DNA from: Daucus carota subsp. sativus
Lineage: Eukaryota > Streptophyta > Magnoliopsida > Apiales > Apiaceae
Reading direction: 5' to 3'
Length of the DNA stretch: 64,000 nucleotides
Assembly (NCBI RefSeq): GCF_001625215.2
Contig: NC_030383.2
Coordinates: 48,356,380-48,420,379 of the forward strand
Below the pieces are notes generated by a model. The model did no database searches and had not been told where the DNA came from. It worked only from the letters and a program-made list of their open reading frames with translations. A program made the translations under genes and the position numbers. Below are positions 18,901 to 41,295 of this stretch, in pieces (position 1 is the first letter of the stretch; every line of letters begins with the position of its first letter).

Positions 18901-19849
18901 TCAGATGGGTTAGTTACTTAACTGTGTATACGCATCCCCGTAATGCAAGAGTTAATGAGTAAAAAAGATGTTTTTAACGACACGCATTATTTAGCGCATA
19001 TAATATTAAGATATTGGTTAATTAGGACATTTTCTCAATTTAATTATGTTATTTTATATTGGAGTTTTAAATATTATGAAATTATATTAATGTTGAATTT
19101 TATCTTTTACTTAATTTTATACGATTCAGTCCCTGCCAATAAAATGAAAGCAATAATTTTACGTGTCTAACCAAAGAGAAAATTCAATGAGAATTTAGTT
19201 CGTCCGATACATACACGTCATGGGCATCCCATTGATTAGATTTTTAAGTTGTATTATCTATTAATTTTATTAGTTACTCCTATCTAGATTTTATTGGAAG
19301 ACTTATTTAATCTTATTGAATTTTTTTTCAAAAAAAATATTTTTAATATTTGAATTATTTTTTTTCTCAACCACACTGGTTATAGGATTCTATTTTAGGA
19401 CATTAGATTCTTATTGTCTAAATTAACGGAGATACTTTGTTTATCATTCCGTTTAATAATAGAAAATTTAAAATAAAAGAAATTTCTATTGATGCAGTAT
19501 ATCTTGTACTTATATGTACCTCTGTCAAAAAGAGAACAATACTCCTTAAGTAAAAGTGACTCATCAAAATATTAGATATGATCTTCAAAGGTAGATGAAG
19601 AGAAATCATATCGAAAAATATATATTTCAATACTAGTTTTCTTGTACACACGACACATTATTAGAAAAAGATCTTGAAACTTCGTAATTCATGTTCATGA
19701 TCAAGATTGGATTTTTCTTTCAATCTAGGATGCGCCTTAAAGCCCATTTGGGCATGCTCAAGCTCAAGAACATATGAATAACGAACCAAATATAATCTGA
19801 ATCCAATCATAAGAACTATTAAAGTCAAGTTTAGCTCATTTGAGCTTAT
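15907..19849. other. Gene-poor AT-rich intergenic region
   Basis: The first 200 bases are the probable 3' UTR of the MYB gene. After that I see no protein family, RNA gene or clear transposon end in nearly 4 kb. Open frames here are short, T-rich and unlike known proteins. The region is probably old, decayed repeat DNA. Confidence 0.5.
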
Positions 19850-20247
19850 TGTTGGAGCCAAAGTTCTGCCGGATGCCGAAGACTGAAAGTGACCTGAAAT
19901 AGAGAAGAATGCGAGGGATTGTCCCCCCGATTCACCTCCGGCGTGAGAATAAGTTAGTGGCTCTAGGAAGGGGTTTTGGAGAACTGCAAGCGAGTATGTA
20001 AAAGTGTATGTGAATGTGTATAGAGTTGCGAATGAATTTTACCACTGATTTACCCACTTTTTATAGGAGGAGGAGGTGCCCTGCTGTGTAACGTTCCCGC
20101 CCGATGCGGGGGGGGGGGAAGTTATGGTGAGTAAAGGAGGCGGGATTCTCTCGCCCCGACCGTTGCAATAGTAACGTTTAAGTTCAAGTAATGGGCTGGG
20201 CCTGCTTTTGGGCCTTGACGAAGTGGGCCAAGGCTTATGATCCAACA
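19850..20247 (-). repeat. 3' LTR of the truncated Tat element
   Basis: About 398 bases bounded by TGTTGGA and TCCAACA, a 7-base inverted terminal motif with the usual TG..CA ends. It is followed on the inner side by TGTCCCCAGGC, which on the minus strand is a purine tract (GCCTGGGGACA) that can serve as PPT. No second copy exists in the window, so the limits rest on the ends alone. A G12 run lies at about 20108. Confidence 0.7.
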
Positions 20248-20490
20248 TGTCCCCAGGCTTCGGTCGGGTTATAAACATGGCCGAAGCCTAAATTGTCTTC
20301 GACCGACCGACAGGGCGAGGCTCTAGAGTGGGAGCTAAGCAGTCGCCTCGGTCTGATTTCAAAATGCTCGGTCCGATGGACGTATGGTGTCGTTTGGGCG
20401 CTGGATGACGTGTCCTCGAGATAAGCGCTGAATCTGGGCCGTGCATTCCAAAGGGTGCCATTAATAGGGCGCGCCTTTTCATAATTTGTT

Positions 20491-20498
20491 TATAAATA
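20491..20498 (+). promoter_or_regulatory. TATA box for the antisense gene of the first Tat element
   Basis: TATAAATA on the plus strand, with a pyrimidine-rich leader after it. A leader intron probably runs from 20650 (AACAA/GTAAGT) to 21130 (TTTGCAG), four bases before the ATG at 21135. The promoter points opposite to gag-pol transcription. Confidence 0.65.
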
Positions 20499-21134
20499 CA
20501 AATCATTACCACCCGTTTCTTTTCATATTTCCAATATCCTCTTGTTTTCTTCTCAACTCTCCATTCTCTCAAGCTTCTTGCTCTCAGGCGCTAGTTGCCA
20601 ACCGGCGGTGGTTCTTTTTCCGGCCCCTTTCTCCCGTTTTCTCTAACAAGTAAGTTCCTCTTCCTTCCTCGTCGATTTCTTTTACTGTCTTTATAGAATG
20701 CTGCTATATACTGTCGATTCTTTGTATTTGTATTTCCTGGTGAAAGTTTTTCGCCGGTTTGTAAATATTTGTTTGTCGCCGGTATGTAGTTTTTCTGTTT
20801 TGCTGGTTCCTGGAGGTTTCTTATTCTTGTTGCATGCTTACATTGTGCTGGTTATCGTAGATTAGGATTGTGGTTGGGATTTTCCGGCGATTCCAACTTT
20901 ATGTCTTGCCGCCGTTTCCCCCTCCGCTTTGCTACTTTTACTTGTATTTTAATTTCTGGCGAGTCTTGAATGTGTGTCGATTTGCTGCTTGGGTTGGCTC
21001 TATAGGGTTAGGTTTAGTTAAGTCACGTTGGCCCGACCCGATTCGGCCCTCTGTACTCGGGCTTACTTCTTTTTCTTCTTTTTCTTTCTTTCCGAGTACA
21101 AGGCTTATGTTTGCCTTCTCTCGTTTGCAGGCAA

Positions 21135-22910
21135 ATGGATCGGTCGGGTGACGTTGTGGGGACCTCTTACTCGGCTACGGACCACTTCAGTGATGCGCTG
21201 AAGTTTCCAATGGCCAACTTTCCTTCCCTACTGACCGAAGCGGATCTGAAGTCGTTTCGGATAAAGTACCAGATACATCGGTCATGGGACATTTATCCGG
21301 CCACAGAGAGCGATTGCATCTACCAAACACCTGAGTCGGAGGAAGGACACAGGTGTGTGGGCATCTCCGAGAACGCCTTTAAGTGCGGCTTTCGGCTCCC
21401 GATGCTTCCCCTGCTGAAGAAACTTCTGAAGCAGACGGGGATCGCCTTAGGCCAGTTGGACCCGAACGGATTTACGTACATAAACGTATTCCAGCATCGG
21501 TGTCTGATGGCCGGCGTGTCTCCTCGGCCAGCTCTTTTCTGGAATCATCATGATTTCAAGAAAAATGCCAAGAGCAATGGCTTCTACACCATCGGCCGTA
21601 AGACCGGCCGACCAAATTGGTGTGAAACCAATTCAAGCAACAAAGGGACCCACGAAAGATGGTTCTATCTGGGGGGTCATTCGATCCATAAGTTTTCCAC
21701 GTGGAGGGAGGTCGACCCCTCGATCATCACCACTCCCCTTTTGGTCGGCAAGGACCTAGAGGACTTTGAGAAGTTAAGCAAAGTCCAGGAGCCGAACCGG
21801 ATCCTGCTATCGACGAGCCGGGAGAAGGAGTGGCTTTTTACTATTTGGGGTAGTGACGGTAGTTTCCCTGTTTCTCTTAGGCATTTCCTTCGTTATTCAA
21901 CTGTTTCTTTTATATCTGTGCATTGCTTTGACACTTGTTTCCTTGTGCAGTGTCTTCTCGGACGGAGGCCCTAAAGCGGAAGACGGCGAAGGCCATGGCG
22001 GCCAAGAAGGAGGCCGAAGCAAAGGCCAGGGGCGAAACAACAGTTGGTGCCATAGTCCAGGCGGATATGGCTAGGGAGAAGACTCCGGAGGTTGGTCGGG
22101 CGGATGGGACGACCGAGAAATCCTCCGAGGTCGTGAAAGTTCCGGCCCCCGAGGCTTCTAGGAAGAGGAATAGGCCGGACGGCTCGTCTGAAGTCCGGCC
22201 GTATGTTCCGGAGTGGTCGGTTCTGGCGACCGATTCAATTGCCATCATGGCCCCGGATCGGATCAAGGATGTTGCAGGCGATCTGTGCCGATCACAAGTC
22301 CTTCCGGCCGACCGAGGGACTTATGATTCAGCTACTGCTCTCCAGGCATGCGAGCAGCTGATGTGCTTCCTCTCCTTGGTAAATGTCTTGGTTTTTCACC
22401 TTTTCGTTTTATAAACCCTGAATGCACCTTTTAACTTGTCCAATTTTTGTGCAGGCTTCTCCTTGGGCAGCGGCGGTGACCGACAAGGTCCAGGATATGC
22501 AAAAGCAGATGGCCGGGGTCAACGCCCTCACTATCAGGGCCAATCTTGCTGAGGATACCCTGGCGGCCCTGAAGACGGAACTGAACGCCGCCCACCAGGA
22601 CCTGAAGGATCTTCGGGAGTCCGAAGGCCGTCTGAAGGGACAGGTCGACACCCTGACCAGGAGGGTTCAGCGCCGCAACTTGGCGTTGAAAGCTGCCCGC
22701 AAGAAGGAGAAGAAGGCAAAAAAGCTCCTGGAGAAGACCGAAGATCGGTTTCTGGACATAGGCTACGATGAGGCCGTTCGCCGGGCCCACAAGGAAGGGC
22801 TGGATCATAAGCTCCTTCTTGACGAGGGGGCTTCGGATCCAGTCGGCCGTGAGGACCCGGACGACCCAATCGCAGTCTCCTCTGATCCAGATTCCGATTA
22901 TTCGGAGTAG
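21135..22910 (+). CDS. Antisense ORF protein of Tat element 1 (Transposase_28-like), intact
   Basis: The gene runs against pol. Three coding exons, 21135-21858, 21951-22378 and 22455-22910, have GT-AG ends, intron phases 1 and 0, and join to 535 residues with no stop. The first 240 residues resemble the 'putative gypsy type transposon' family (Transposase_28), with ENAFKCGFRLPM and PNGFTYINVFQHRC as the clearest stretches. The middle is Lys/Ala/Glu-rich. The last 150 residues, roughly from VQDMQKQMAG, look like a coiled coil, followed by an acidic tail. I chose the ATG at 21135 because it directly follows the leader intron. The gene ends 726 bases from the end of pol, in convergent orientation. 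The function of such antisense ORFs in Tat elements is not known to me. It is unbroken although pol beside it is damaged. Confidence 0.8.
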
Positions 22911-22934
22911 TTTAGTCTGAGCAATTTGTTTGCC

Positions 22935-23300
22935 TTTGGGCTTTTGTTTGTAAGAACGATATGCCTTCGGGCTTGTACAAATATTTTGCCTTCGGGTTGT
23001 TAATTAATTTCGCCTTCGGGCTTGCTTTCAATACTTGGCTTTATCTCCATACATGTTTTTGCTTCTGATGTATGTCTTAGATAAGATATGTCTTCGACCG
23101 ATCGGTCTCCATACTCGTTTTGTTGTCGCAACTTTTAGGCCGACCATTCAGCTTTTATGCGACTGTATGTCTTAAACCGAAGGGTTTCGATACATGTTCC
23201 ATATATATTTCTTTTTTTTTTATATGTATGTCTTTGACCGTTCGGTCTCGATACAATTCTAGCAATTTTACGTCTGACCGATGAATCTCGATACACGCTA
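22935..23300. repeat. Degenerate repeats between the antisense gene and pol
   Basis: First come several copies of GCCTTCGGGCTT-like words (22938-23025). Then four looser units of about 40-80 bases follow at about 23086, 23164, 23224 and 23266, each with a variant of TATGTCTTTGACCG-TCGGTCTCGATACA. The core is close to palindromic (GACCGATCGGTC). This is where the two convergent transcripts would end. Confidence 0.65.
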
Positions 23301-23635
23301 ATTGAATTCGGAAATGTGCGTCTTTAGCCTTGAAAATTGGCTTCAGCACAATGCCTCGATCCCCCAATATTTGGAGGTTGTTATTATCTTTAAGTTACGT
23401 ATTCGATCGGCCCCATTGTAGATAAAAACAATCGTGCAAATATTAAGTTAAATCAAGGCCAACTCCTTCGGTCCCGTAATTTTGATCAGGTTGCCCCGAG
23501 TTACGGGATCGGTCGGAGTGTTAAGCAAGTTGAAATTGCTCAAAAAATTTGAAGTAGAAGCTTTTATTCATTGGAAGGGAAACAATTACATAATTGTAAC
23601 GAAGTAGTGAAAGTAAAATGTTCGGGCGGGAAGCC

Positions 23636-26600
23636 TTACTGATAATATTTCCGGAGCTGGGAAGCATGCCAAGTGTTCTTAATGGGGCTTCCATCCGGAG
23701 TGGCAAGTTTGTACGTTCCCGGCCGAACTATCTCAACAACAGTGTATGGGCCTTCCCAGTTTGGCATAAGTTTTCCTTGCTTCGTCGGCATGGAAGTAGC
23801 CAAGTCTCGGAGAACCATGTCCCCAACTCTGAAAGAACGCTTTCGGATACCCGAATCATAGTATTGAGATGCTTGCTGTAGGTATCGAGCATTCCTCTGA
23901 TGGGCAGCCTCTCTTTCTTCTTCCAGGAGATCCAAGTTGCCTCGGAGGCCAAAGTCATTGGTGTCGGGGTTGAAGACCTGGATTCGGTAAGACTCGAGGC
24001 CAACCTCGACCGGAACAAGCGAATCGGTTCCATAAGCTAGCCGAAACGGAGTGTCTCCTGTCGAAGAGCGAGGAGTGGTTCGGTATGCCCACAGGACCCA
24101 AGGGAGCTCTTCGGCCCATAGTCCCTTAGCTTCGCCAAGGCGCTTCTTGATTCCGTGAAATATGATCTTGTTAGCTGCCTCAATCGCCCCGTTTCCTTGG
24201 GGATGACCGACCGAGCTGAATTTTTGTTGAATGCCGAAGCTGGCCAAGAATTCCTTGAACTTCTTCCCAACGAACTGGGTGCCGTTATCGGATACACACA
24301 CCATCGGTATTCCAAACCTCACAATTATCTGCTCCAGGAAGAATTTCTTGGCAGCCTGTTCGGTGATAGCTGAGAGCGGTCGGGCTTCGACCCACTTTGT
24401 CATGTAATCAATGGCCACTATGCAATATTTGGCTTGCCGGGTGCTGGTCGGTAGGATGCCAACTATGTCGATGGCCCACATGGAGAAAGGTATTGGGCTG
24501 AGGACCGAAGTCATTTCTTCCGGGGGTTGCTTCGGAACATTGCTGTGGATTTGACACTGTCGGCATTTCTTTGAATAGTTGGCTGCATCTTCTCTGAGGG
24601 TTGGCCAAAAGAATCCCTGTCGGAGTATCTTTAGGGCTAGGGATCGGCCGGCCAGGTGTTCGCCACAGATTCCTTCATGAACTGTCTCCAGGGCTAAAAG
24701 CTGTTCCTCTGGATCCAAGCATCGGAGCAGGGGCTGAGAGACTGATCGCCTAAAGAGTCGGCCCCCGATCAGTGTGTAGCTAGCTGCTCGGTACTTTATC
24801 TTTTGGGCTTCCTTCTTCTCTAAGGGTAAGAACCCCTTTTCTAAGTATGCTCTGATGGGGGTCATCCAATTTATGCCTTGATGAATCTCCAGGCAAGCTT
24901 TCTTGTCGACCGAAGGCTTTTGTACCTCCGTCAAGTAGATGGACCCCGTCAAATTCTGGGTTTCGGCCGAGGCTAAGCGAGAGAGTGCATCAGCACGGCC
25001 ATTGTCCTCCCGACCGATGGCGCTTAACTCGAAGGTTTCAAAAAATTGAGTTTGTTCCCGAACCTTAGCGGCATAAGCCTTCGTTCGGGGTTCTTTTTGT
25101 TCATAATCCCCGGAGAAGTGCTTGACGACCAGCATGGAATCACTGAAAGCCCTCAAGTGCCGTACTTCCAGATTTTTTGCTAGACTCATTCCTGCCAGGA
25201 GGGCTTCGTATTCGGCCTCATTGTTGGTCAAAGGGAAAGTGAATCGGATGGCTTGACAAATCTCAAATCCGTCGGGAGTAGAAAGGATCAATCCAGCCCC
25301 ACATTTAGACCCGGCCACCGATCCATCTACAAACAACTTCCATTTTCCTGGAGTCCGGATGAGCTGTTCCTTCGGCTCCAAGTCCTTCGGCCCGGAAAAA
25401 ATGCACTCCACCATAAAGTCAACCAAGGCTTGGGCTTTAATGGCTGTTCGGGGAACGTACTCTAAGTCGTATTCCCCCAATTCTACAGACCAGGCGACGA
25501 CTCTGCCCGAAGCCTCCGGTCGGCTGAGGATTTTCTTCAAAGGCTGGTCGGTGACCACTTTATCGTTCGCCCTTGGAAATAGTGTCGCAATTTTCGGGAG
25601 GCCATAACCAGCCCATATGCGAACTTCTCGGCATTCGGGTATCGTGTTTCGGCATCCCTCAGCATATGAGACACATAGAAGACCGGATGTTGGTTCTTCT
25701 CGTGCTCCTTCACTAAGACCGCACCAAGGGTTCGGTCACTTACTGCCAAGTACAGCTGGAGGGTCTCCTTCGGATCGGGCCTCAGCAATAGAGGGGCTTT
25801 AACCAGATATTCCTTTATCTCTTCGAAGGCCTTTATGCAGTTCGGCCCCCACTCAAAATTCTTGGCTCCCTTCAAAACTTCAAAGAATGGGAGCGCTTTT
25901 TCCGCCGACCGAGAGATGAACCTTCGGAGGGCTGCCAGTCGCCCAGTCAGCTTCTGAATGTCCCGAATGGTCTTCGGGGCTTCCATTTCTAATACTGCCT
26001 TTATCTTCTCAGGATTCGCTTCGATCCCCCTTGCACTGACCATATACCCTAGGAACTTGCCACTACAAACCCCGAAGGTGCACTTGGCGGGGTTGATCTT
26101 CATGTTGTTCCGTCTTAGGGTCTCAAAGCATTCCTTGAGGTCATCGGCGTGATCTCGAAACAAGGACTTTACTATCATATCATCGACGTAGCATTCCATG
26201 TTTCTGCCTATCTGATCGGCGAAGACTTTGTTCACCATCCTTTGAAAAGTGGCCCCCGCATTTTTCAGACCGAAGGGCATCTTGATGTAAGCATAGGTTC
26301 CCTTCGGGGTGATGAATGCTGTCTTAGGAATATCCTCGGCATCCATGGCGATCTGATGATAGCCTGAAAACGCATCCAAAAAGCTGAGTATTTGATAGCT
26401 AGAGGTGGCATCTATCAGCTGATCGATGTTCGGCAGAGGGTAATGATCCTTCGGGCAATTTTTGTTGAGGTCGGTATAATCGACACACATTCTCCATTTG
26501 TTGTTTGACTTCTTGACCACCACCACATTTGCCAGCCATTCGGGATACTCAATCTCTTCAATAAACTTGGCCTCCAGTAACTTTTCCACTTCGGCCTCAA

Positions 26601-27345
26601 TCATCTTCTGCCTTTCCACAGCGAAGTTCCTCTTTCTCTGCTTAACGGGCACAGCCTGTGGATGGACATTTAGCCTGTGCCGAGCGATCGACTCATCCAA
26701 GCCGGGCATATCTTCGGGCCCCCAGGCAAAAACATCATGGTACCGACGGACCACATCAATCACCTTTTCCTTCAACCCTGGTTCCATATCTTTACCGATC
26801 CGAACCATTTTTCCCGAGCACCCTGCATATAATTCCACCTCTTCGGTCTCAGTGCCTGGTTCGGCTATCGGGTTTGAGAGATCATTTCCAAACTTCTCCA
26901 ACTCAATATGTAGGGCATGGCCGCTGCCCCCAGGACCATCTTCGGTTCGGCGCCGTTTGTTTCCTTCGGCGCCGCCTAGATCCTTGTCCTTCTCCAAGTC
27001 TTCCAGCATAATGATCCTAGCAGCCTTCTGATCACCTCTCATCTCTCCCACTCCCTTCTCGGTCGGGAACTTCAACTTGAGGTGGGGAATAGAGGCAATG
27101 GCTTCGAAAGCAGTGAGAACAGGTCTCCCCAAGATGGCATTGAAAGGACTCTCGACTCGGACCACATAGAACTTGACCTGTTTTTCTACAGTATAAGGGG
27201 ATTTACCGAGCAACAAGGGCAAGTGGATCGTACCTTCGATCGGGACGGGCTGATTGCCGAACCCATAGAGAGGTGCCTCATAGCAGGTATCGATCTGCTT
27301 GCCTTCTAGGTTCATCTTCTGGTAGGTGTTGAGTTTCACACATTT
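23636..27345 (-). pseudogene. Truncated, frameshifted Tat-type pol
   Basis: The minus-strand reading frame 27345-25537 covers the end of the protease region (FNAILGRPVL), reverse transcriptase (WRMCVDYTDLN; catalytic YVDD near 26190) and the start of RNase H. A one-base loss at about 25557 shifts frame; the continuation 25558-23636 holds the rest of RNase H and a second RNase H-like domain (LFVDGSVAGSKCGAG, TNNEAEYEALLAG). It also holds integrase, with an HHCC-like zinc site and catalytic Asp, Asp and Glu in AIDIVG, SDNGTQF and NGAIEAAN, and a C-terminal WEGPY region. Gag and the protease active site are missing. The remaining domains are well preserved, so the damage looks fairly recent. Confidence 0.9.
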
Positions 27346-27396
27346 TTCTTGGCTGTTAATATAATCAAATGAAAGGTTATGATTTCTAGTATTTAT

Positions 27397-27797
27397 GAGA
27401 GCAACTCCAATGCAATGCTATACTTGGTTTTATTGCTATATTATAGCATCAAAAGTAAAAAAACTCAACTCCAAAAGGGTGCTATATTTGGATGCATCCA
27501 TGCATTGATGCATCCTTGGTTCTATATTTGAAACCAAGGATGGATCCATCCATGTTGCCACATCATCAATACCTAGAAATTGGAAACTAGTTAATGAGTT
27601 AATGAGTTAGGTAAAAGTTAATGAGTTGGTTCTATATAGAAGTTAGGTAAAAGTTAATGAGTTGGTTAAATTTGAAACTAGTTATAGAACCTAGCATTGG
27701 AGTGCAAGTTTTATTTTAGCTCCAAAAAATATCTTTTTGTGCTATATTATAGCAATAGCAATAGATATATAGCATCTAGCATTGGACTTGCTCTTAG
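27397..27797. mobile_element. MITE with GAGAGCAACTCCAATGC-type TIR
   Basis: The left end is GAGAGCAACTCCAATGC and the right end, reversed, AAGAGCAAGTCCAATGC. Just inside, TGCTATA motifs also mirror each other. The inside has internal repeats ('agttaatgagttggt', 'tgcatccatgcattgatgcatcc'). This 'gagca-tccaatg' end is common in plant MITEs. The target duplication was not resolved. It lies about 50 bases from the broken end of the first Tat element. Confidence 0.8.
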
Positions 27798-27799
27798 AG

Positions 27800-28326
27800 G
27801 TATCCATTTGATATTTTTTATGACTTTAGTGACTCAAATGAGACCAAAACTTTCTGAGTGATCCACTTGATATTTTCTAGTGTAAAAAGTGACCTAATTG
27901 ATAATTAACCCGTAAAATAAACCTAACGTGAGATTGTGAACGGGATAAGCAGGCAAGAACTCTGCGGACAGACCACAAACTGCGTGTATATAGTTGGAAT
28001 TAAGATGGTACACGATGACGAAGCATGGGAGATATTAAAATATGGCAGAGTTGAAGATGAGGTGAATCTTTTTTTTTTTTTTTTTTGACGGATAGATGAG
28101 GTGAATCTTAATATATGGATTCTCATACACTTTTGACCCTTCGCCTAGATATTCCTGGATAACAAACATTTGGGAGCCCAGCAACACAGCTAGCCTCCTT
28201 TTGTTTCCCCTGATTTCTTGTCTTTTTATTCCTTAGTATCTTTTTTATACAAATATCTAAATAAGCAACCTAAATATCTATCATCTTCCCTTGCTCTTTT
28301 TAACATATCTTCTTCTTGAGTACACC
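27800..28326. other. Promoter-side flank of the DUF1589 gene
   Basis: No gene. It holds the T-tract micro-insertion at 28071-28093 and ends in the TATA box at 28327. Confidence 0.5.
28055..28109 (-). mobile_element. Micro-retroposon: T16 plus 7 bases between 16-bp direct repeats
   Basis: AGATGAGGTGAATCTT at 28055-28070 recurs exactly at 28094-28109. Between them lie 16 T and then GACGGAT. On the minus strand this is a 7-base body with a poly(A) tail flanked by a 16-bp target duplication, as expected from an extremely 5'-truncated LINE or SINE insertion. Confidence 0.7.
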
Positions 28327-28334
28327 TATAAATA
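28327..28334 (+). promoter_or_regulatory. TATA box of the DUF1589 gene
   Basis: TATAAATA, 91 bases upstream of the ATG at 28418, at a usual distance for a plant promoter with a short leader. Confidence 0.7.
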
Positions 28335-28417
28335 TACAACACTTGGACTCTCCAACTTCAACTTCATATTCATACAAATACACACATAGCTTTATAATTT
28401 ATATAGAATTTAAGGAG

Positions 28418-29151
28418 ATGGCAAACCAGATTCATGATCAAGTTCCTTGCTTGCATTGCCATCCAGAAAGCTTCATTAGAATGGTAATTATTTTTGGCTT
28501 TCCCACTTTAATATTAGTTGTTGCCAATCTTCTTATATGCTGTACTCAGGGCCGGCTCACTAGTAAGGCCAACTAAGAGTCTGTACCGCTTATTATTGTT
28601 ACATTATAAGCTTAGTTATTGATTAAGATATTTTCATATCTGTAGGTTCAGCATTTGATAGAGAGATGCTTGCTCTTAAACATGAGCCGGGAAGACTGCA
28701 TTGCTGCTCTACAAGAGCATGCAAACATAGACCCCATCATCACTATTACAGGTACGAATCCATATAAATCCATGCAGTGAGCCACTTCATTTAGTGATGA
28801 TGTACATATGTATGTGTTGTAAGCATTAAGATAAGTAATAGTAGGAGGATTGAATTGCAGTTTGGGAAGAACTGAGGAAAGAAAACTCGAGTTTCTTCGA
28901 GTCATACGACGTCCATGCAGCTTCCTCAGAAAATCAATCGATGATCAGCAGTAGCAGTGGTTAGTATTCTTCCATGACTACTCACTCCGGGCTTCTTAAC
29001 TGATCATATGGAATAGTTTTCTGTGACTTAATTTGATGAAATCTCTTTACTGATTGCAGGTGACAGTGGATCAAATGAACTTGAATCCAGTTTAACAAAA
29101 GAAGAGAAGACGTGGGGTGATCAAGAAGAATTATCATGTTGCCAATACTAA
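28418..29151 (+). CDS. Plant protein of unknown function 1589 family (A_thal_3526 domain)
   Basis: Four exons, 28418-28483, 28646-28751, 28861-28959 and 29060-29151, join in frame to 120 residues. The core of about 55 residues (from VQHLIERCLLLNMS through TVWEELRKENSSFF) matches what I know of the plant-only family 'plant protein 1589 of unknown function'. That family is a short helical domain followed by a variable tail. Here the tail is Ser- and Glu-rich and ends in SCCQY. There is no signal peptide or membrane segment. The biochemical role is not known. The ATG is the first after the TATA box at a suitable distance. The family call rests on remembered pattern, not a search. Confidence 0.8.
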
Positions 29152-30212
29152 CAAGAGACTCCTAGCTTCAGATAATACCGCTACTGTATATTGTACTTTG
29201 GCAACTCTGTTTTGTTAATTTAATCTCCTTTAAAAACCTTTGTGTTGCATACTTCCATAGAGGTGTGGATTAGATGTCCAAGATATGTTTTCCAAAACAG
29301 ACAAGATAACAGATATTTTATCAAATTATTTGGAGTCATGTGTAATCCGGCCTCTCGAACTAAAATTTTTAATCTTGCAAATAAACTCAAAAATTCGATT
29401 CAATTAAATTTAGTGTATATATCACACATATAGTGGTATAATTTGTAAGTGACTAAGTGGTGTGGAATAAAATTTTGTGTAGAACTTGCTATTATCATAA
29501 ATTTCAAAGGTTGAACTCGAATAAAATATTGAAATAACTTTAAGTTGGTTTTGAAGTCGATTAAATTATTACTATGTCTAATATGATATTATGATATTTT
29601 GAAGGAAGACCTGACTCACTCAGTTACTCGAAATTTCTATCATTCGAAATTCATCATATGTATATAATTAAAGAAAATAGAGAGAAATAATTTAAAATTT
29701 GTAAGTGATTAAACTGTGTGTGAAAGAATTAGAAGTCCGAAAATAAAACTAACATTGTCAGCTTTTCATAAGGGTTTCTGATTTTTCACGCAAACGGATT
29801 ACAAAAAACAAAAACATGTTCGGAAGCCGGATTTCCAGACAGGCATTCGGTTAAAATCTCTCACACAGTCGCAAAGACAGAAATGGTATACATTTGGACA
29901 GAGGTCGGTGCAGTTTTATAAATTAATTAAAAACAAATCTAAGTAAGAGTTTATTATTTTCAGAATAAATTTTTTGAATAATATATAATAAAAATGTTTT
30001 AAAATATACATTAAATAGATGCCAAATAATAAAGATGTGTATAATAATAATTTGGACCAATAAAAAATGACAGGACAATATTCTAGCGATTAATCGGGAA
30101 ATCGGGGATTAATCGAAAAGATTAATCGGAGCATTAATCGGACATATATTATTTCTAGGGGCGGTCGGAATACATTCTAGCGATTAATCGGAGCATCAAT
30201 TGGACATATATT
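29152..30212. other. Intergenic DNA left of the complete Tat element
   Basis: Probable 3' UTR of the DUF1589 gene, then AT-rich DNA. At about 29695-29815 there is a decayed copy of the hAT-like MITE found at 56064 (shared AAGTGATTAAACTG, then similar spacing of AGAA-TCC-GAAA and TTTTTCACGCAAACG). At 30080-30205 short GATTAATCGG words recur six or so times. The retrotransposon inserted at the edge of that cluster. Confidence 0.5.
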
Positions 30213-30641
30213 TGTTATAGAACTAAAAACGGGGGTGAGCGATTCGTGCTTTGGACTGGTCTCAGTGCGAGATGCCTACGTATCTTCTGCGTGGAGAAGA
30301 ATCAAGTCCAAAACGTAGTTCTAGTTACGAGGGGTAGAGCCCTTTATATAGGCGCTTCGGAGTTAGAAGTCGGATGGAAGTATGTTTCCGTGTATCAGAC
30401 TTCTTATCGAAGTATGCCTCGAGGCAAGAGATAAGATAGAACTCTTATCTTTCCGTTGCTGATATTTATTCGAACTCCGTGATGTTTATCCGCTAGAATC
30501 AGATGTATTGTAGAATTTAGACTTGTAACTAGACCTATAACTGGGCCTCTATTAATTAATTACGGAATTAATATCTCAGGCCCTATTTAACTGGGCTTTA
30601 GTATTCTGGGGCTTTTAATATCAAATACTATTTCCGACCCA
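30213..30641 (-). repeat. 3' LTR of the complete Tat element
   Basis: 429 bases from TGTTATAG to GACCCA. On the minus strand it carries a TATA box, TATATAAAG (plus 30342-30350). It differs from the other LTR at four single bases. Confidence 0.97.
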
Positions 30642-30646
30642 TATCA

Positions 30647-30662
30647 TTTGCCCCCCAACTTT
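30647..30662 (-). other. Polypurine tract
   Basis: On the minus strand AAGTTGGGGGGCAAA lies five bases before the 3' LTR, the expected place for the primer of plus-strand DNA synthesis. Confidence 0.8.
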
Positions 30663-31238
30663 CGACAAGTTTCGTAGAAACTTTTCAAAAGTTGCTGAGA
30701 CCTTATCGGCTTTCCGAGCTTCATTCATTACGCGAGAAAGCTAACTTCTGCCAATTCTTATCACCCAAGGTCTGAAGTTCCATAAATAGCGCAAGGATCT
30801 CACTGATCTTGACTACTTTGAAATAATTCGAGAGATGATTTGAATTGACTGTATAGTAAAGATAGCTCTGTTTCGTATCCTTCGGGATTGCATTTCATAT
30901 TTTGTTGGAATATCAGAAGATACGAGTCCTTTTTATCTGTACAACAAGTATCCTTTTCAGATGTATGCTTGTAATGGTGCTTTCGAGCATTTCCGTATTT
31001 TTTCAGGGCTAAATTCAAATTAATTGGAATTTTTATGATTAAATTCCAATTTTCTAGAATTTTTCGAGCCTTTAAATAATTTTCAAAATATTTTTTTGAA
31101 ATTAAGATCCCAATTTTACTATTTTTCCTGATTTTTCAGGAATTTTTCCTGTATTTTTCCAATTTTTAGGAATCCTCAGAATTTAATTAAAGAATTAAAT
31201 AATTCTTTAATTTGATCAATCAACCCTTGAATGGAATG

Positions 31239-31696
31239 TGTCTCCTGGGCGTGCTTTGCCACGCCAAGGAGACATATTCACTGCCACGCCTAGGAGACAT
31301 GTCTCCTGGGCGTGGTTGCTTTAAGCCAGCCAAGGCTGGTTCGTGTGGTGCTTCCTTGGCGTGTCTTGCCACGCCAAGGGGGCATGTCACCTACCACGCC
31401 AAGGAGACATATCTCCTTGGCGTGGATGAGTTAGCCACCCGTGGCTAAGTGCTATGTTGCTTCCTTGGCGTGCGTGGGCACGCCAAGGAGACATGTTTGC
31501 TCAGGGTGTCTCCTGGGCGTTGATGGATGAGGCCTATCTGGGCTGACCAAGATGATGCTTCCTTGGCGTGCCTTACAACGCCAAGGAAGCACGTTATTTA
31601 TCAGGCCTAGGAGATATGTCTCCTGGGCGTGGATGAGCGTAACTTTCCACAGATTGAAGAAATAGTTGTCCCTTAGGCGTGCTACGCCGCGCCTAA
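31239..31696. repeat. Cluster of about eight GC-rich palindromes
   Basis: The words CACGCC-AAGGAGACAT and their complement (TCTCCTTGGCGTG) recur in inverted pairs. Pairs are at 31239-31274, 31284-31315, 31354-31379, 31394-31425, 31462-31489, 31558-31589, 31605-31630 and 31673-31696. Those at 31284 and 31394 are near-perfect 32-bp palindromes with almost no loop. The surrounding DNA is AT-rich, so the cluster stands out. It lies between the 3' LTR and the antisense promoter. Confidence 0.9.
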
Positions 31697-32122
31697 AGAG
31701 CAAAGTTTTGAACCCACGCCAAGATAATATAGTCACTTTATGGCTTTAATGAAATGGCCATTTATTTTTCAAGTAAACGACGCCTTTGCTCAACAAGTGA
31801 ATGTTCCCTAGGCGTTGCATGCCCCGCCAAGGAGACATGGCAGGTGCCACGCGTAGAGGATGTGTTTTGGGAGCCAAGTAGCGTTATATGTTGTGGGCCT
31901 TAGTCTACAACTTGTCAGGCCTATTTAGCTTATTATTCTTTTACTTTATTTTTGTGAGTGTCTTCAGGAATTCTCGAGACCCTTCTAGAATAGGTACGAA
32001 TTTTTCAAATTTATGGGCTTCCCGCCTCTGACACGGCTTAATGACCGGCCCAAGGCCCATTTTACAGGCTGTAGCCAGTTCATTTTAGGGTTTACCGGCA
32101 AGTGAACCGGTTGTGGATTGCC

Positions 32123-32130
32123 TATATAAT
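32123..32130 (+). promoter_or_regulatory. TATA box for the antisense gene of the complete Tat element
   Basis: TATATAAT on the plus strand, 270 bases before the ATG at 32400, followed by a pyrimidine-rich leader (TTCACTTCTCATTTCACTCC). It would drive transcription opposite to gag-pol. Confidence 0.65.
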
Positions 32131-32399
32131 GGGTGACTGAGAGTTCACTTCTCATTTCACTCCAAAATTTCCAAGTTTAAGTGCTAGAAAACCCTCCCAC
32201 ACACTCTCAAAAATTCTCTAGTTTCTCGGCGAATTCTTAGGCGTATCTCCGGCAATCTTCAAGTTCTTTCCAGATTCCGGCCGATATTCAAGGGTTTTCC
32301 AGTTTTCCGGGCGATCTTCAAAAATTTCCCAGGTTCCGATCAATCTTCATCTTTTCTTCATTCATTTCTGGGTTTCAAACCTTCATCACAAAGATATCA

Positions 32400-34355
32400 A
32401 TGGCGGATTCTTCATCCTCTCAACAATCTCAACAATCTCAGCTATCCCAGCCTCCTGTGGCCACCGCCAAGGTCAATCGAGGTAAAAAATCTCTCGTCCA
32501 TGCAAGTGTTTTTTCTCTTCGTGACTTGCTTTCTGAATTCGGCCAAGCTTTTCCAAATTTACTCCATTTAGATGCATATAAATTTCCTTCCAAATATGAT
32601 CAAAAGGACGTTGATGCCATAGCCTATCTTTTTGGCATCAATGGGCCTTATAGTGCCGTGGCCCCAGGCCCAAATGACCGAGCCTGCTATCCCAAACCTG
32701 GGGCCCTTAGAATTTACAAAGAAACTTTTTACGCGGGCTTCAGATTGCCTCCTCCAGAGTTCGTTTTTAGACTTCTGGCCGAGGCCCGCGTTTGTCCGAC
32801 CCAACTCCAGCCCAATGGCTGGAAATTTATTTACTGCTTTTTAGTCCAGTGCAAAAAGCACGGCATCGAGCCCAGTGTCTCGGTGTTTAGATACCTCTTC
32901 AAATTCGTTAATGCGCCCAACGACGAGGGTTGGGTCAAGATCCAATATAGGACCTTGGCCCGTAGCATCTTTGTTTCAGGCTCCGCCCCTGACTCACTTC
33001 CCCACTGGAAGAAACAGTGGTTTCATTTATATTTAAATGAGGGGAATTGGGCCGACTATTTTTATTCGGACTTTAGCAAAGCCGAAGATGGGCCTGTTAG
33101 GTCCCTAAGGTTGGGGGTGGAGGAAGAGGCCGCAATAAAAATCTTGACCGGGGACTGCCTCCACCATTGCTCCGTCCTTGTTTCTGAGGCCTCGCTCCAG
33201 GAACACGGGCTTAGCGATTTGGGCCCCGAGGGTATTTTACTTTTACCCCTTCCTTTTTTTTTTTTTTTTTGGGCCGTATCTATTTATCATGTGTTCTAAT
33301 TATTTCTTGTCTTTGTGTTCGCAGCCCAGGAAAGATTGAACACAATCTTTGCAAAAAGGGAGAAGGCCGCGGCGAAAGCTGTACCGGCCGAGGTCCAGCG
33401 GGTCAAGAGGCCCAGGAAGAGTGGGGCCCAAGAGGTAGTGGAGAGGGTCCCTACCTTTTTGGCTCCAAGGCCCAAGACTGTGGATGAGGACCCGAGTCCT
33501 TACGTGGTCCAATGGGGCCTTTTAAACAAGGACACGATTGTGGGGGACGCCCGGGCCGCTGCGGAGTGGTCCAAGAACGTGGTGACCCCTCGCGACCGGG
33601 CCCACGTGGTGGAGTCCTCAGAAGACCTCCAAATAGAGATGTTGGGGGCCCAGGCTGTGGCGACGGTAAAGCCCATTTTTCTTTCTATGTCATTTCTTTA
33701 CTTAGAAATATTTCTTCCGTTATGTTTTACTTAGTCTTTTTTGCTTGCTTTCTCGCAGATGAACACCTATCTCCAGGCGGCCGTCCACAACCTGAAAACG
33801 GTGAGGGCGGAGAAGGCGATCGCGGAACGCGACCGCGATCGTTATTTCGAAGCCTCAACTGCCAACTTCGAGCAGTTCAGGAGGGTGGAGGCCGAGTTGG
33901 TGGCCGAGCAAGAGAAGGTACGGTCGTTGGAGGCCGAGCTGGAGAGGGTGCGCCGGGAGGCGATTGCGGACTATAAGGCGTAGCCGGAGTTCGCCGATCT
34001 CCTTGCGGCGGAGTACGACTCTTCCTTCCACGAGACCTTCAAATCTTGCTGGGAGAGAATCATAGATGAAGTGGGGGCCCAAGTCGAGGGGGTCACACTG
34101 GAACGGTTCCCGGTTCCTGTACTTCCCGGAGAAGAAACCCCTTCTCCGATGGCGGTAGAGGATCTCGGTGACTCGCACCCATTCGATTCCCAAGATGGTG
34201 GGGTCCCTACTGAGACTCTTGTGATCGAGGATCCCAAGCGGATCGAGGAGGGTCTCGAGGAGGAGGTCGAGGCCCAAGATGAGGAGACCCGGGAGGAGGA
34301 GGCCCAAGAGCAAGAGAAGGCCCAAGATGACATCTTTGATGACGGGCTTCCCTAG
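32400..34355 (+). CDS. Antisense ORF protein of Tat element 2 (Transposase_28-like), with an internal TAG
   Basis: Plus-strand gene inside the minus-strand element. Exons 32400-33231, 33325-33665 and 33759 onward have GT-AG ends and intron phases 1 and 0, the same as in the other Tat element. The N-terminus is Ser/Gln-rich. Then comes a Transposase_28-like region (YKETFYAGFRLPPPEF, PNGWKFIYCFLVQCKKHG), a basic middle part (KREKAAAKAV), and a coiled coil rich in Glu and Arg. A TAG at 33981-33983 stops the frame after 465 residues. The same frame then stays open to 34355 with a strongly acidic tail. So the TAG may be a recent nonsense change or a natural end with a decayed extension. The frame reading on from 33231 into the intron ends at 33299 and is not the gene. 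The role is unknown. Confidence 0.75.
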
Positions 34356-34827: not shown

Positions 34828-37800
34828 TTAAATATAATATATCTTTAAGTTGGTCGCATGCCAACTTCTAGGGACTTCAACTCCTTCCAAGGTTTGAAGC
34901 TTGTATGAGCCATGGCCTGTGACAGTCTTAACTTGGTAGGGGCCTTCCCAATTTGGAGCCATCTTGCCTTTGGGACCTACCCCTGAAGCCTCAATTTTTC
35001 TAAGTACCAGATCTCCTTCCCTGAAATATCGCTCCTTAACCCGTAGGTTATAGTAATAGGAAGCTCGTTTCTGGTTTTCCACAATCTTAGCATGAGCTTC
35101 GTCACGAATCTCATCGATCATATCAAGCGCCAGTCTCATACCTTCTTCATTGGCTCCCGGCTCGTACTGCTGGACCCTGGAGGATGTATGAGTGATCTCA
35201 AGCGGCACCACTGCCTCGGCTCCATAAGCCAGCTGAAAGGGGGTTGCCCCAGTTGAAACCTTGCAAGTGGTTCGATACGCCCATAGTATAGGAAGTATGT
35301 CATCGGCCCATGATCCCTGGGCCTTCTCAACTCTTTTCTTCAGCCCATCGAGGATTATTCTATTGGCCACCTCAGCTTGTCCATTAGCTTGAGGGTGAGC
35401 AACTGAAGTAAAGCGTAACTCGATCGAGTAGTCCTCACAATAACTTTTAAACTCAGCGTTATTGAACTGAGTCCCATTGTCTGTAACCATGACTCGGGGT
35501 ATTCCGTACCTGCAAATAATGTTTTCCCACACAAACTGAGCAACCTGCTTGGTGGTTATCTTGGCCAGTGGTTTGGCCTCAATCCACTTAGTAAAATAGT
35601 CAATAGCTACCAACAGAAACTTCCTTTGCGCGCTAGCAAGTGGGAAAGGTCCAAGAATATCCATCCCCCACATTACGAAGGGGATAGGAGTATTGATGGA
35701 TGTCAGCATCTCAGGTGGCTGTCGTACAACAGGTGCAAACCTTTGACAACGATCACACCTTTTCACATAGTCTTGAGCATGCTTTAGCATATCTGGCCAA
35801 TAGAATCCAAGGCGAGTTACTTTATGAGCCAATGCTCTTCCACCGAGGTGTTGGCCACATACCCCTTCATGAACTTCTCTAAGGGCTTCTCGAGCCTCAT
35901 CCGGCCTCAAACATCTTAAATAAGGGATCACAAACGATTTTCTATATAAGACCCCCTCAATGAGTACATACTTAAGGGCCCTTACCTGTATCTTTCGTGC
36001 TTCATCAGCATTAGGCGGCAGATGACCACTTTGTAAATATAACTTAATCTCATCCATCCAAGTGGCCCCTGTGTCAATGGGAGCAACTAACTTTGCTTCG
36101 ATGCTAGGGGTTCTTAAAACCTGATAATAAACACTTCCTGAGCATACCTCATCATCGGAGGATGCAAATTGCGATAAGGCATCAGCCTTGGTATTCTCCT
36201 CCCTTGGCACATATTCTACCAAGCATTCTTCGAATAGTGCCATCTGGGTCTTTACAATCCTTAGATATTTCAGCATAGTCTCCTCACGGGCTTCAAATTC
36301 ACCATTCACTTGGAAGACTACAAGCTTTGAGTCACCACAGACCTTCAAATTCTTTACCCTCAAGGTTCTAGCTAGACCAAGTCCAGCTATCAATGCTTCA
36401 TACTCTGCTTCATTATTGGTGGTCGGAAAGTCTAGCTTAATAGCATATTCCACAGTAAAGCCATCAGGGCTTTGGAGTACAAGCCCTGCACCACTACCTT
36501 TTGTTTTTGAAGCCCCGTCAAAAAATAGTAGCCAATATTCTTTAGGTTTTTCTTCCTTAGTAGGTTCTTCTACCTTGTCTCCTTGCCCCCCAACTTCCTG
36601 GTTGCTAATGGTGCATTCAACTAGGAAGTCAGCTAAGGCCTGAGCTTTAATCGCCGTTCGAGGTTTGTATCGGATATCAAATTCTCCAAGCTCAATGGCC
36701 CACTTGATCAATCTTCCACTAGCCTTAGGGCTATGTATAACATTTCGGAGAGGTTGGTCTGTCAGGACTTCTATCTTATGAGACTGAAAGTAAGGTCTCA
36801 ACTTCCTCGAGGTCGTAATCATGGCCAAAGCAAACTTTTCGATCACTGAGTAATTGAGCTCCGCTCCATGCAGAACCTTGCTCACATAGTATACTGGTTT
36901 CTAGACTTTGGATTCCTCCCGAACCAAGACGACACTTAGCGCTTGTTCCGAGACAGCTAAGTATACATACAGGGTTTCACCCTCTACGGGTTTTGATAAG
37001 AGTGGTGGCTCTGCCATATATTTCTTTAGATGTTCGAAGGCCACTTGGCTCTCATCCGTCCATTCAAAATTCTTAACCTTCTTTAATGCTTTGAAGAAAG
37101 GCAAGCACTTGTCTCCTGACTTGGATACAAACCTCCCCAAGGCTGCAATTCTTCCTGTCAGTTTCTGAACATCCCTTACACTCTTTGGGGGTTCCATATC
37201 TAGGATAGCTTTTATCTTGTCGGGGTTGGCTTCAATACCACGCTTTGAGACCATTAGACCCAGGAATTTCCCAGAACCGACCCCAAAGGCACACTTAGCT
37301 GGGTTTAACATCATCTTATGCGTCCTCAGGACTTCAAAGGCCTCTTTAAGGTGTTCAAGGTGATCCGCTTTGTTCAAGCTTTTCACCAACATATCGTCTA
37401 CGTATACCTCCATAGTCTTTCCAATCAGATGTTTAAACATCTTGTTTGCAAGGCGTTGGTACGTTGCTCCTGCATTCTTAAGTCCAAAGGCCATAACCAA
37501 ATAACAAAATACACCAAAGTCAGTGATAAACGATACCTTGGGTACATCGTCCTTGTCCATCCGGATCTGATTATATCCGCTGAAACCATCCATGAAGCTC
37601 AGCATCTCATGACCAGCGGTGGCGTCTATTAACGTGTCTATCCTTGGAAGAGGGAAACAATCCTTGGGACAAGCATCATTCAGATCAGTGAAGTCTACAC
37701 ACATCCTCCACTTTCCATTGGCCTTCTTGACCATAACAGGGTTCGCCAACCATTCTGGAAATTGTATCTCTTCGATAAAACCTGCTTCCAACAACTTATC

Positions 37801-40266
37801 GACCTCTTGTTTAATGGCTTCTTGCCTTTCAGGGGCGAAGTTCCTCTTCTTCTGTTTAATAGGCTTCCTTACGGGGTTTACATTCAACTTATGTGTTATG
37901 AATGAGGGGTCGATACCTGGCATATCAGCCGCTGTCCAAGCGAAAACATCACGGTTGTTCCTCAAGAACCTCACAAACTCTTGTTTCAAATCTTCCTGGA
38001 GTAATGCTCCAACATAAGTGACCTTTTCAGGCTCTTCTGTATACAATTGGATTGGAACCAAATCTTCGGCAGGCTTGCCTCTCCTTTCCTCTTCTTCTCG
38101 GACATCAAGGTCCTCTATCGGTAATACTTGCCCCCCGGCTCCTCCAGATCTTAATGCCCCAATATAACAGCTTCGGGCCATTTTCTGGTCTCCTAATTCT
38201 TCCCCAATTCCGTTCCTAGTCGGGAATTTGATCTTCATGTGGTAAGTAGATGGGATTGCTTTAAAAGCATGTATTCCAGTCCTCCCAAGGATGGCATTAT
38301 AGGTTGATGAGGCTTTAACGACCAAGAAATTTACCATGCACGTGGCTTGTCTGGGTTCGGTACCCATAGTTACTGGAAGTTGGATCATGCCTTCAATTTT
38401 GGTTTCCACATTGTTGAAGCCATATATAGGCATGTCTGAGGGTGTTAACTGAGTATCAGAATACCCCATCTTTTCATAAGCATCATAGAACAAGATATCC
38501 ACCGAGGCTCCATTATCAACAAGCACTCTCTTTACGGACGAGTTTCCAATCACTGGGGTAATTACTAAAGGGTCATCATGAGGAAATTTCACCTTTTCAA
38601 GGTCGATATTGTCGAATGCTAGAGCATAATCAATTTTTGCCCGCTTCGGAGGTTCTCCAACTATATTCATCACTTCCCTTGCATAAGCCTTTCTTGAATT
38701 GCTTGAAGTGCTTGCAGCGGTAGGTCCTCCGGAGATTATATTAATAACAGGCCCTCGAGGCTGAGTTCTTTTGTCATCATTGTCTCTTCCACGATTATCA
38801 CCGTCTCGATGATTCTTGTCTCCATCCTTGGTAAATTTGGATAACTTGCCTCTTCGGATCAAGAACTCAATCTCATCCTTCAACTGTCGGCAATCATCAG
38901 TCTTATGTCCTGTATCCTTATGAAATCGACAATACAGGTCTTTGTTTCGTTTCTCCGGGTCGGTCCTTATAGGCTTCGGCCATCTTACACTTTCATCCTT
39001 TTCGATTTCCAGTAGGATTTGGCTTCTCGGGGCATTGAGCCTAGCATACTCCGTGAATCTTGGTCCCGCCTTCTTCTTAGCAGGAGATTTTTCATCGTCG
39101 TCCCTCTTGGGATATTTGTTCTCAGCATTGTACTCGGCGTCGTTTCCGCGTTTCTTGAAGTTGGTATTCGGTCCCTGATTGTTCTGGGATTTTCTCAAAC
39201 TTTCCTCCGCCTTTATATACTTTCCGGCTCTCTCTTGTAAATCGTTCATATTGTCCGGAGCCCTCTTGGCTAGGGATCGGCGAAAATTGTCATCAGTGGT
39301 GCCTTGTTGGAGGGCAATCATGGCCACCTTCTGATCAAGGTCTGGGACCTTCAAGGCTTCTTTGGTAAAACGATTCATATACTCCCGGAGTGATTCGTTC
39401 TTACCTTGATGCAAATTCATTAGGGAGGCCGAGCTCTTAGCATGTGTTTTGTTTCCAACAAATTGCCCTATGAAAGCCCTGCTCAAGTCAGCAAAACAAG
39501 AGATAGAATTAGGGGGTAGGCGACTATACCAATGTTGGGCCATCCCACTCAAGGTTTGGGGGAAAGCTCGGCACTTGATTGCTTCAGTGACGGGCTGGAG
39601 TAACAAAGCGTTCATGAAGGTTCGAACATGATTAGCGGGATCACTCGTGCCATCGTAAGCTTTTATGGTTGGGAGCTTGAATTTTCGGGAAATCCTTGCA
39701 CTCATGATTTCTTGCGTAAAAGGGGGAACCGGGTTATCAGGATCGCCTGCTGGTAACAAGTGAATTTGATTCATCACGGTTTGACGAGGGTTTTCATCCC
39801 TAGATTCCGGGGGTTGCATCCTTGCCTGGTCTCTTTTTAACCGTGCGATTTCCTCTTCATAGGCCCGGATCCTTTCCTCATAAGTTATTGGCCCCCGGGG
39901 CTCATTAGTTTCTTGCCTATGGCGGCGTCGACGGTGTCGATCAGCATCTCTCCTCCTTCGAGGGGGTGTATCATGCTCCTGCTCCGATTCGGAAGAGTCG
40001 TAGTCAGTTACATGCACATAGTCATCTCTTGTGCCTCCACGGGTGGTTGTAGTGACCGTTGAGTAATGTGTGCCGACGTCGGTGATGGTTGCAATTACTC
40101 GAGTCAGAGGGGGCAGCGAGCCAAAAGTCAGGGGAGTAGTAGTTTGAGCAATGGTCGTACCAAGCGGGAGGGTGGTAGTTACAGGGGTTGATTCAGTCGA
40201 GACCCCGGTGGTGGTTCGACTGCGTGGAACATGGATTTCAGAGCGTGGTCCGGTTGGGTTTGTCAT
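34828..40266 (-). pseudogene. Tat-type gag-pol with one in-frame stop
   Basis: The minus-strand frame starts at the ATG at 40264-40266, 35 bases inside the PBS-side LTR edge. In order: an Arg-rich acidic N-terminus, the capsid region (from YDGTSDPANHVRTFMNALLL), a CCHC-like knuckle (CRFHKDTGHKTDDC), protease with a DNGAS active site near 38514, RT with YVDDM near 37400, and RNase H. A TAG at 36901-36903 interrupts RNase H. The frame continues at once on the other side with more RNase H, a second RNase H-like domain (LLFFDGASKTKGSGAG, TNNEAEYEALIAG) and integrase (GMDILGP, TDNGTQF, NGQAEVAN). The end is at 34828. There are no frameshifts. The dual RNase H and integrase without chromodomain fit the Tat lineage. 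Confidence 0.93.
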
Positions 40267-40278
40267 GGTTGTTGTTTC

Positions 40279-40300
40279 CTTTCCCACAGACGGCGCCAAA
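40279..40300 (-). other. Primer binding site
   Basis: On the minus strand the LTR end is followed by TTTGGCGCCGTCTGTGGGAA. TGGCGCCGT fits the 3' end of plant tRNA-Asp (..ACGGCGCCA), while the following bases fit less well. The same TTTGGCGCCGTCTGTGGG string is familiar from other plant Tat-lineage elements. Confidence 0.8.
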
Positions 40301-40729
40301 TGTTATAGAACTAAAAACGGGGGTGAGCGATTCGTGCTTTGGACTGGTCTCGGTGCGAGATGCCTACGTATCTTCTGCGTGGAGAAGAATCAAGTCCAAA
40401 ACGTAGTTCTAGTTACGAGGGGTAGAGCCCTTTATATAGGCGCTTCGGAGTTAGAAGTCGGATGGAAGTATGTTTCCGTGTATCAGACTTTTTATCGAAG
40501 TATGCCTCGAGGCAAGAGATAAGATAGAACTCTTATCTTTCCGTTGCTGATATTTATTCGAACTCCGTGATGTTTATCCGCTAGAATCAGATGTATTGTA
40601 GAATTTAGACTTGTAACTAGACCTCTAACTGGGCCTCTATTAATTAATTACGAAATTAATATCTCAGGCCCTATTTAACTGGGCTTTAGTATTCTGGGGC
40701 TTTTAATATCAAATACTATTTCCGACCCA
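40301..40729 (-). repeat. 5' LTR of the complete Tat element
   Basis: 429 bases, TGTTATAG to GACCCA. The promoter TATA (TATATAAAG) is on the minus strand at plus 40430-40438. The right flank is the ATATT target duplication. Confidence 0.97.
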
Positions 40730-41295
40730 ATATTATTTCTAAATTATTATAATTAAATGTAATTTAATAATTTTATCTACTTTTCACTACTAGTAGAGTC
40801 AATCTGGTAAACAATATTATAATATCATATATTAAATAAATACTTGATACATGTAATACAAAATCGTTGATTAAATATATATATATTATATATATACACA
40901 CACACATCAATTAGTCTCTTATATATAATATAAGAAATATTAAATAAATATATTAGTCATTTTATTTTTTTTATAGGATATTAAGTTAAGTACAAGTGAA
41001 TACTTAATTTCTTATAATATAATCCTAATTTTAAATTTTATTTATTATAAATATTATTATTTTTGTTATTGACCACATGGACCACTTAGGCGGGATGTTG
41101 ACAACGATCCATTTTTTTTTAAAAAAAACCTAATTAATTATATGTTTCGGGACCACCTAACACGTAGGCAACGCCTGTACGACCTACACCCATTTTTGGA
41201 ACACTGTCCCCGAAATTATAGTTCAGAATCACTTATGTACACCAAATACACTATTCTAGTATTCTATAACATATACTTTCCGTTTTAATTTTATA

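Follow-up and report, generated by a model that had tools for sequence, protein, structure and literature searches.

Evidence for a conserved, intron-containing antisense gene under protein-level selection in two Tat-clade retrotransposons of Daucus carota

Do the open reading frames (ORFs) that lie opposite to gag-pol in Tat-clade retrotransposons belong to a genuine spliced gene, or do they stay open by chance? This question is raised by a 64,000-nucleotide stretch of Daucus carota subsp. sativus (NC_030383.2, positions 48,356,380 to 48,420,379; hereafter the window, in whose own coordinates all positions are given), which carries two Ty3/gypsy elements, A and B, on its minus strand. An initial annotation had proposed that each element harbors, between pol and the 3' long terminal repeat (LTR), a plus-strand gene with a TATA box, GT-AG introns in phase 1 and then phase 0, and a Transposase_28-like N-terminus, encoding a selected product and not a chance ORF. 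The exons of such a gene were located in both elements. Read in the spliced frame, which requires removal of the introns, they show strong selection at the protein level. Taken together, a genuine antisense gene, its splicing and a function at the protein level appear quite probable.

Gene A, in element A, was compared across 30 copies, comprising the window gene and 29 further copies in the genome of the same plant (441 Mb, 11 contigs), taken from 41 matches listed with 40 candidates scored. Its TATA box, TATAAATA (20491-20498), lies about 240 bp inside the internal region and is kept in 29 copies. A predicted leader (5' untranslated region) intron (20650-21130), which the initial annotation had missed, retains its GTAAG donor in 29 of 30 copies and its TTTGCAG acceptor in all of them. 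Coding exon 1 (21135-21858) measures 724 nt in 27 of 30 copies and encodes the Transposase_28 (TRP28) domain (PF04195, E = 7.7e-8); exon 2 (21951-22378), a linker with a basic patch, measures 428 nt in 29 of 30. Exon 3 (22455-22910), which is charged, coiled-coil-like and includes the stop codon, keeps its length in 28 of 30 copies, with 456 nt, or 455 nt in 13 copies whose match ends one base early and in which the terminal stop hence lies outside the alignment. The phase 1 intron separating exons 1 and 2 (21859-21950; 85-110 nt among copies) is bounded by GT-AG in all 30 copies, and the phase 0 intron 2 (22379-22454; 75-78 nt) in 29. The spliced product has 535 amino acids, and its frame is open in 24 of 30 copies; unspliced, intron 1 can be read through in frame without a stop in one copy and intron 2 in six.

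Gene B presents the same organization in a set of 13 copies (the window gene and 12 others, out of 40 matches listed and 40 candidates scored). The TATA box (TATATAA, 32123-32129) is located about 1.5 kb inside the internal region, and 12 of the 13 copies retain CTATATAAT. Some 30 bp upstream of it, a conserved box with AGGGTTTA (32083-32098), also kept in 12 of 13 copies, resembles a plant telo-box. Exon 1 (32400-33231) contains the Transposase_28 domain (PF04195, E = 7.4e-12) and keeps its frame in 12 of 13 copies, exon 2 (33325-33665), again a linker with a basic patch, is 341 nt long in 11, and exon 3 (33759-34355) has a length that is a multiple of three in 12. Both introns are bounded by GT-AG in all 13 copies: intron 1 (33232-33324) in phase 1, with lengths of 82-95 nt, and intron 2 (33666-33758) in phase 0, with lengths of 93-116 nt. 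Read-through without a stop is available in one copy for intron 1 and in two for intron 2. The spliced frame is open in seven of the 13 copies, and intact copies exist in both families. The window copy of gene B has an in-frame TAG in exon 3 (33981-33983), unnoticed in the initial annotation, and would encode 465 residues.

The exon boundaries could also be read from the genome itself. Queries joining exon 2 with 100 nt of each adjoining exon were searched in the genome, scoring 40 candidates of 170 for A and 40 of 46 for B. Nearly all the resulting blocks stop at query positions 100 and 528 (A) or 100 and 441 (B), and none of the 118 blocks listed for A or the 119 listed for B spans an exon junction by more than 9 nt. 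The conserved blocks therefore correspond to the predicted exons.

Selection was assessed through the ratio of nonsynonymous to synonymous substitution rates (dN/dS), computed pairwise with the Nei-Gojobori method and leaving out pairs less than 3% apart. For the spliced product, dN/dS is 0.058 in A (411 pairs, with a median of 0.058) and 0.072 in B (77 pairs), that is, about 0.06 and not near 1, in a test that the initial annotation had itself named. Each exon of both genes lies between 0.04 and 0.10 in the spliced frame (0.040, 0.093 and 0.044 for exons 1 to 3 of A; 0.050, 0.040 and 0.098 for those of B). The other two frames of the same strand yield 1.45-4.42; on the minus strand, the frame that mirrors the codons yields 0.11-0.20 and the other two 1.12-8.65. 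Noncoding controls, drawn from LTR, leader and intergenic stretches of A-family copies only, range from 0.57 to 0.92 in all six frames. In both families, intron lengths drift among copies while exon lengths mostly stay in frame. The last 254 codons of pol present a median dN/dS of 0.050 (30 copies, 402 pairs), and the antisense product is, judged by medians, under a constraint similar to that on this C-terminal region.

These values bear on the possibility that the antisense RNA itself acts, either through convergent transcription leading to double-stranded RNA or as an antisense regulator of gag-pol, the protein being incidental. Antisense transcription has been reported for Grande and Retand, and a function of the RNA is discussed in the accessible text of a review (PMC7264820); protein-level selection in the spliced frame only, set against the noncoding controls, is nevertheless unexpected for a role confined to RNA, which we regard as very improbable. 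A role of the RNA in addition to that of the protein could coexist with the observed selection.

The gene structure was also compared beyond these two families. As stated initially, the A and B proteins are only weakly alike, with 22% identity over 431 residues (BLASTP, E = 5e-13). The codons split by intron 1 (residue 242 in A, residue 278 in B) share one column of this alignment; intron 2 falls in a gapped stretch and is not aligned. When a further 22 TRP28 loci (L001-L008 and L051-L064), hand-picked from 150 scored of 864 first-look matches, are clustered with A and B at 60% identity, eight families result; those that could be aligned with BLAST are 22-57% identical. A gene-model script blind to intron phase returned a two-intron top model for 13 of the 24 loci, ten of them with phases (1,0). 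L063 is among these ten; its automatic model has doubtful boundaries and was not counted as support for its family. No two-intron script model was obtained for L004, L005, L006, L008, L051, L052, L054, L055, L056, L057 and L060. Among these, L005, L054, L055 and L056 had their intron 2 hand-placed, and L006, L008 and L057 were included in within-family alignments. For family C and for L061, where it was moved from its automatic position, the hand placement of intron 2 relied on GTGAGT donors.

On this basis, seven of the eight families support phases (1,0), some of them through hand-placed or second-ranked models, and the introns are conserved in most of the other TRP28 families sampled as well as among the copies of A and B, contrary to a second refuting outcome that the initial annotation had listed. 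In A, B, C, E, L061 and L001, phases (1,0) are accompanied by 132-142 residues between the PN motif of TRP28 and intron 1. Family G probably shares these phases, with intron 1 at 113 residues from the PN motif; the top model of its member L053 is (0,0), the (1,0) model scoring 4 points lower out of about 2870, and L008 shares the (1,0) sites. In a protein alignment of the eight families, both introns occupy shared columns in B, L001, C and L061, with L007 sharing only intron 2, and for A, G and F the introns are out of register. Intron 2 comes 22-23 residues after an aspartate (D) in seven of the eight families, an anchor that is weak in E and G, where several D lie nearby. By exon, dN/dS is 0.048, 0.144 and 0.095 in the relatives of B (6 pairs), 0.058, 0.267 and 0.122 in family G (3, 3 and 1 pairs), and, for exons 1 and 2 of family E, 0.118 and 0.212 (15 and 1 pairs).

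Several observations weigh against a conserved, functional antisense gene. Broken copies make up six of the 30 in family A and six of the 13 in family B, the window copy of gene B among the latter. In the little-diverged family C, dN/dS rises to 0.31, 0.44 and 0.44 by exon (7, 9 and 9 pairs). The pol yardstick hinges on the median, the ratio of means for the same region being 0.168. The introns of A and B differ by 22-27% per site, below the synonymous sites of the exons (dS of 0.63-0.78). The scores for the basic patch and for heptads lack a null model. Among the matches listed for the exon-joined A and B queries there is no intronless retrocopy, and thus no genomic trace of a spliced transcript. 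Finally, family F departs from the common pattern, as L062 has phases (1,1), with introns at other places and intron 1 at 87 residues from the PN motif; the structure was therefore rearranged or gained anew in this one branch (L062, L063). The proposal of one shared gene structure is supported with limits: F has a different layout, the (0,0) model scores slightly higher in G, intron 2 of C and of L061 was hand-placed, and in the eight-family alignment the introns of A lie off the columns of B.

Could the frames then be chance or relict features, or artefacts of base composition, with a merely coincidental intron pattern? The broken copies, that of B in the window included, and the weak constraint in family C are what such an explanation can draw on, and it would have to account for the low dN/dS, the frame-keeping indels, the conservation of splice sites and the behavior of the controls. 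We give it hardly any credence. Chance ORFs and an RNA-only role were both rejected on the basis of dN/dS and the noncoding controls.

Transcription and splicing of the antisense genes are predicted here from sequence. An antisense pre-mRNA would start at the internal TATA promoter, between pol and the 3' LTR, and would be spliced at introns that read GT-AG on the antisense strand only. The resulting protein would have a Transposase_28 domain at its N-terminus, followed by a basic linker and by a long, charged, coiled-coil-like C-terminus encoded by exon 3. It may enter the nucleus, eight of nine proteins having a basic patch encoded by exon 2 (four or more K/R in ten residues), a count given without a null model, and may oligomerize via exon 3. 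That TRP28 binds DNA has been predicted in a published survey (PMC11963269), and the protein could regulate the cycle of its own element by binding DNA or chromatin. Its most likely role would be that of a nuclear accessory factor of coiled-coil type that regulates the element, and for this regulatory role taken alone we see about an even chance.

A different use of the same protein can be envisaged, in which it is made from a separate antisense mRNA and serves as a part of the particle or of the pre-integration complex, for instance as a nuclear import or chromatin-tethering factor. A constraint akin to that of the pol C-terminus by medians and the long charged, coiled-coil-like C-terminus would suit such a component, and nuclear entry of the pre-integration complex is one of the possibilities raised in the review text (PMC7264820). 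Stoichiometric packaging with gag-pol would, however, be less obvious for a protein with a separate promoter and RNA, and we consider this role unlikely, if worth keeping in view. Structural and database comparisons were also made. An AlphaFold2 model of B exon 1, with A exon 1 as the sole other row of the alignment, has a mean predicted local distance difference test (pLDDT) score of 37.8. A sequence search of the PDB returned four dehydrogenase chains (E = 0.029-0.42), taken as chance matches, and no relative of the gene B exon 1 protein turned up in the viral contig collection.

How might an intron-containing gene persist in a retrotransposon? Retrotransposition leaves these introns in place because the genomic (sense) RNA carries them backwards, and their presence in the gene argues against the capture of a mature mRNA. 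We tentatively propose, with slightly less confidence than in the regulatory role, that a single ancient gene with several exons accounts for most of the antisense ORFs (TRP28, Smc-like and others) that have been catalogued singly in Retand elements of flowering plants. This gene would have entered the lineage with its introns, and therefore not from mature mRNA but from DNA or from an RNA of the opposite sense. The replication cycle would keep the backwards introns from being lost, and these would ensure that only antisense RNA makes the protein.

The host elements are organized as follows, with their LTRs and gag-pol ORFs on the minus strand. The 3' LTR of element A extends from about 19850 to 20247, the flanks of its copies diverging to the left of about 19850. 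Among 40 scored matches to 19830-20700, ten are confined to query positions 21 through 418-424, each with a longer match some 9 kb away; this stretch is assigned to the LTR because of these end points and this distance. The pol region of A (23636-27339) consists of two ORFs with Pfam matches to reverse transcriptase (RT), RNase H, a second RNase H and integrase, and its C-terminal part is found downstream of the antisense gene in all 30 copies. Beyond about 27.4 kb similarity is lost, and neither gag nor a 5' LTR was found by self-BLAST, by comparison of copies or with Pfam; element A is truncated, a point that the initial annotation had also missed. Element B has a 3' LTR (30213-30649) that is 98.6% identical to its 5' LTR (40301-40738) by self-BLAST, with no clear target-site duplication seen around the pair. 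Its gag-pol ORFs (34828-40299, as 34828-36885 and 36901-40299) match gag, RT, RNase H, a second RNase H and integrase in Pfam. Between gene B and the 3' LTR lie three copies of an 85-nt direct repeat (31236-31637; family D3 of the repeat search), and the repeat search of the window listed no such direct repeats at the matching place in element A. In both elements an RVT_3 match lies between RT_RNaseH and rve, with RVT_1 matches also present. A second RNase H (aRH) before the integrase is described as a mark of the Ogre and Retand elements of the Tat clade (PMC6317226), and the RVT_3 match would correspond to this aRH. Both A and B display a second RNase H, placed after the RT-linked one and before the integrase, as in Ogre and Retand, and an antisense Transposase_28 ORF between pol and the 3' LTR, as in Retand.

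Elsewhere in the window, a 2.1-kb segment with a SWIM zinc finger ORF is flanked by 136-nt inverted arms that are 91% complementary (8267-10620), in what looks like a Mutator-like element or a derivative of one. A minus-strand ORF of 738 amino acids (49243-51459) with pentatricopeptide repeats and an E motif represents a host pentatricopeptide gene, and a plus-strand ORF (61197-62393) matching the first half only of the raffinose synthase profile (E = 5.5e-158) is probably one or more exons of a host gene. A tandem duplication of 82 nt, 98% identical, occupies 46770-46933.

Among known systems, the HBZ antisense gene of human T-cell leukemia virus type 1 (HTLV-1) is spliced. Like the genes described here, it is an antisense gene of a retroelement, and it encodes a nuclear regulator (PMC11963269, PMC7264820). 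Its promoter lies within the 3' LTR, whereas the predicted antisense promoters of A and B lie outside it, their conserved TATA boxes being located about 240 bp and about 1.5 kb inside the internal region, respectively. The domain here is moreover Transposase_28, and homology with HBZ is not claimed. Ogre offers a parallel of another kind, as a Tat-clade element that likewise contains a spliced intron, in this case in gag-pol (PMC6317226). Closer in layout is gene23 of maize Grande, an accessory gene that likewise lies antisense between pol and the 3' LTR; it is reported to have a promoter of its own upstream and to encode a nuclear protein (PMC7264820, on Gomez-Orte 2013). In the genes of A and B the corresponding features are conserved TATA boxes, which would provide a promoter of their own, and the exon 2 basic patch in eight of nine proteins, again without a null model, which may point to the nucleus. 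The likeness to gene23 is one of description, and the review text does not mention introns for it (PMC7264820).

The closest known counterparts are the antisense TRP28 ORFs of Retand elements (Vicient 2025, PMC11963269), which have the same domain, the same place between pol and the 3' LTR and the same orientation. That antisense ORFs were already known in this lineage, as the initial annotation remarked, is borne out by this survey, in whose accessible text they are a Retand hallmark, with TRP28 in 57 of 104 antisense ORFs and in all but two clusters when ORFs below 600 nt are counted; further antisense ORFs there match coiled-coil-type proteins such as Smc. The word "intron" is absent from its main text, and the function and origin of these ORFs of an abundant plant retrotransposon lineage are stated there as open questions; an earlier review had asked that antisense and spliced transcripts be looked for (PMC7264820). 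In the literature searched, whose coverage lacked some key papers, neither a conserved exon-intron structure nor selection values were found, and these are what is new here, antisense TRP28 ORFs and the own promoter of Grande being already known. A spliced gene model turns ORFs of unassigned role into a defined gene for cloning, tagging and testing. Our results suggest that ORF-based surveys split this gene: where the Retand survey counts single ORFs (PMC11963269), the ORFs described here are read as parts of one gene whose introns are conserved and whose exons have been assessed for selection.

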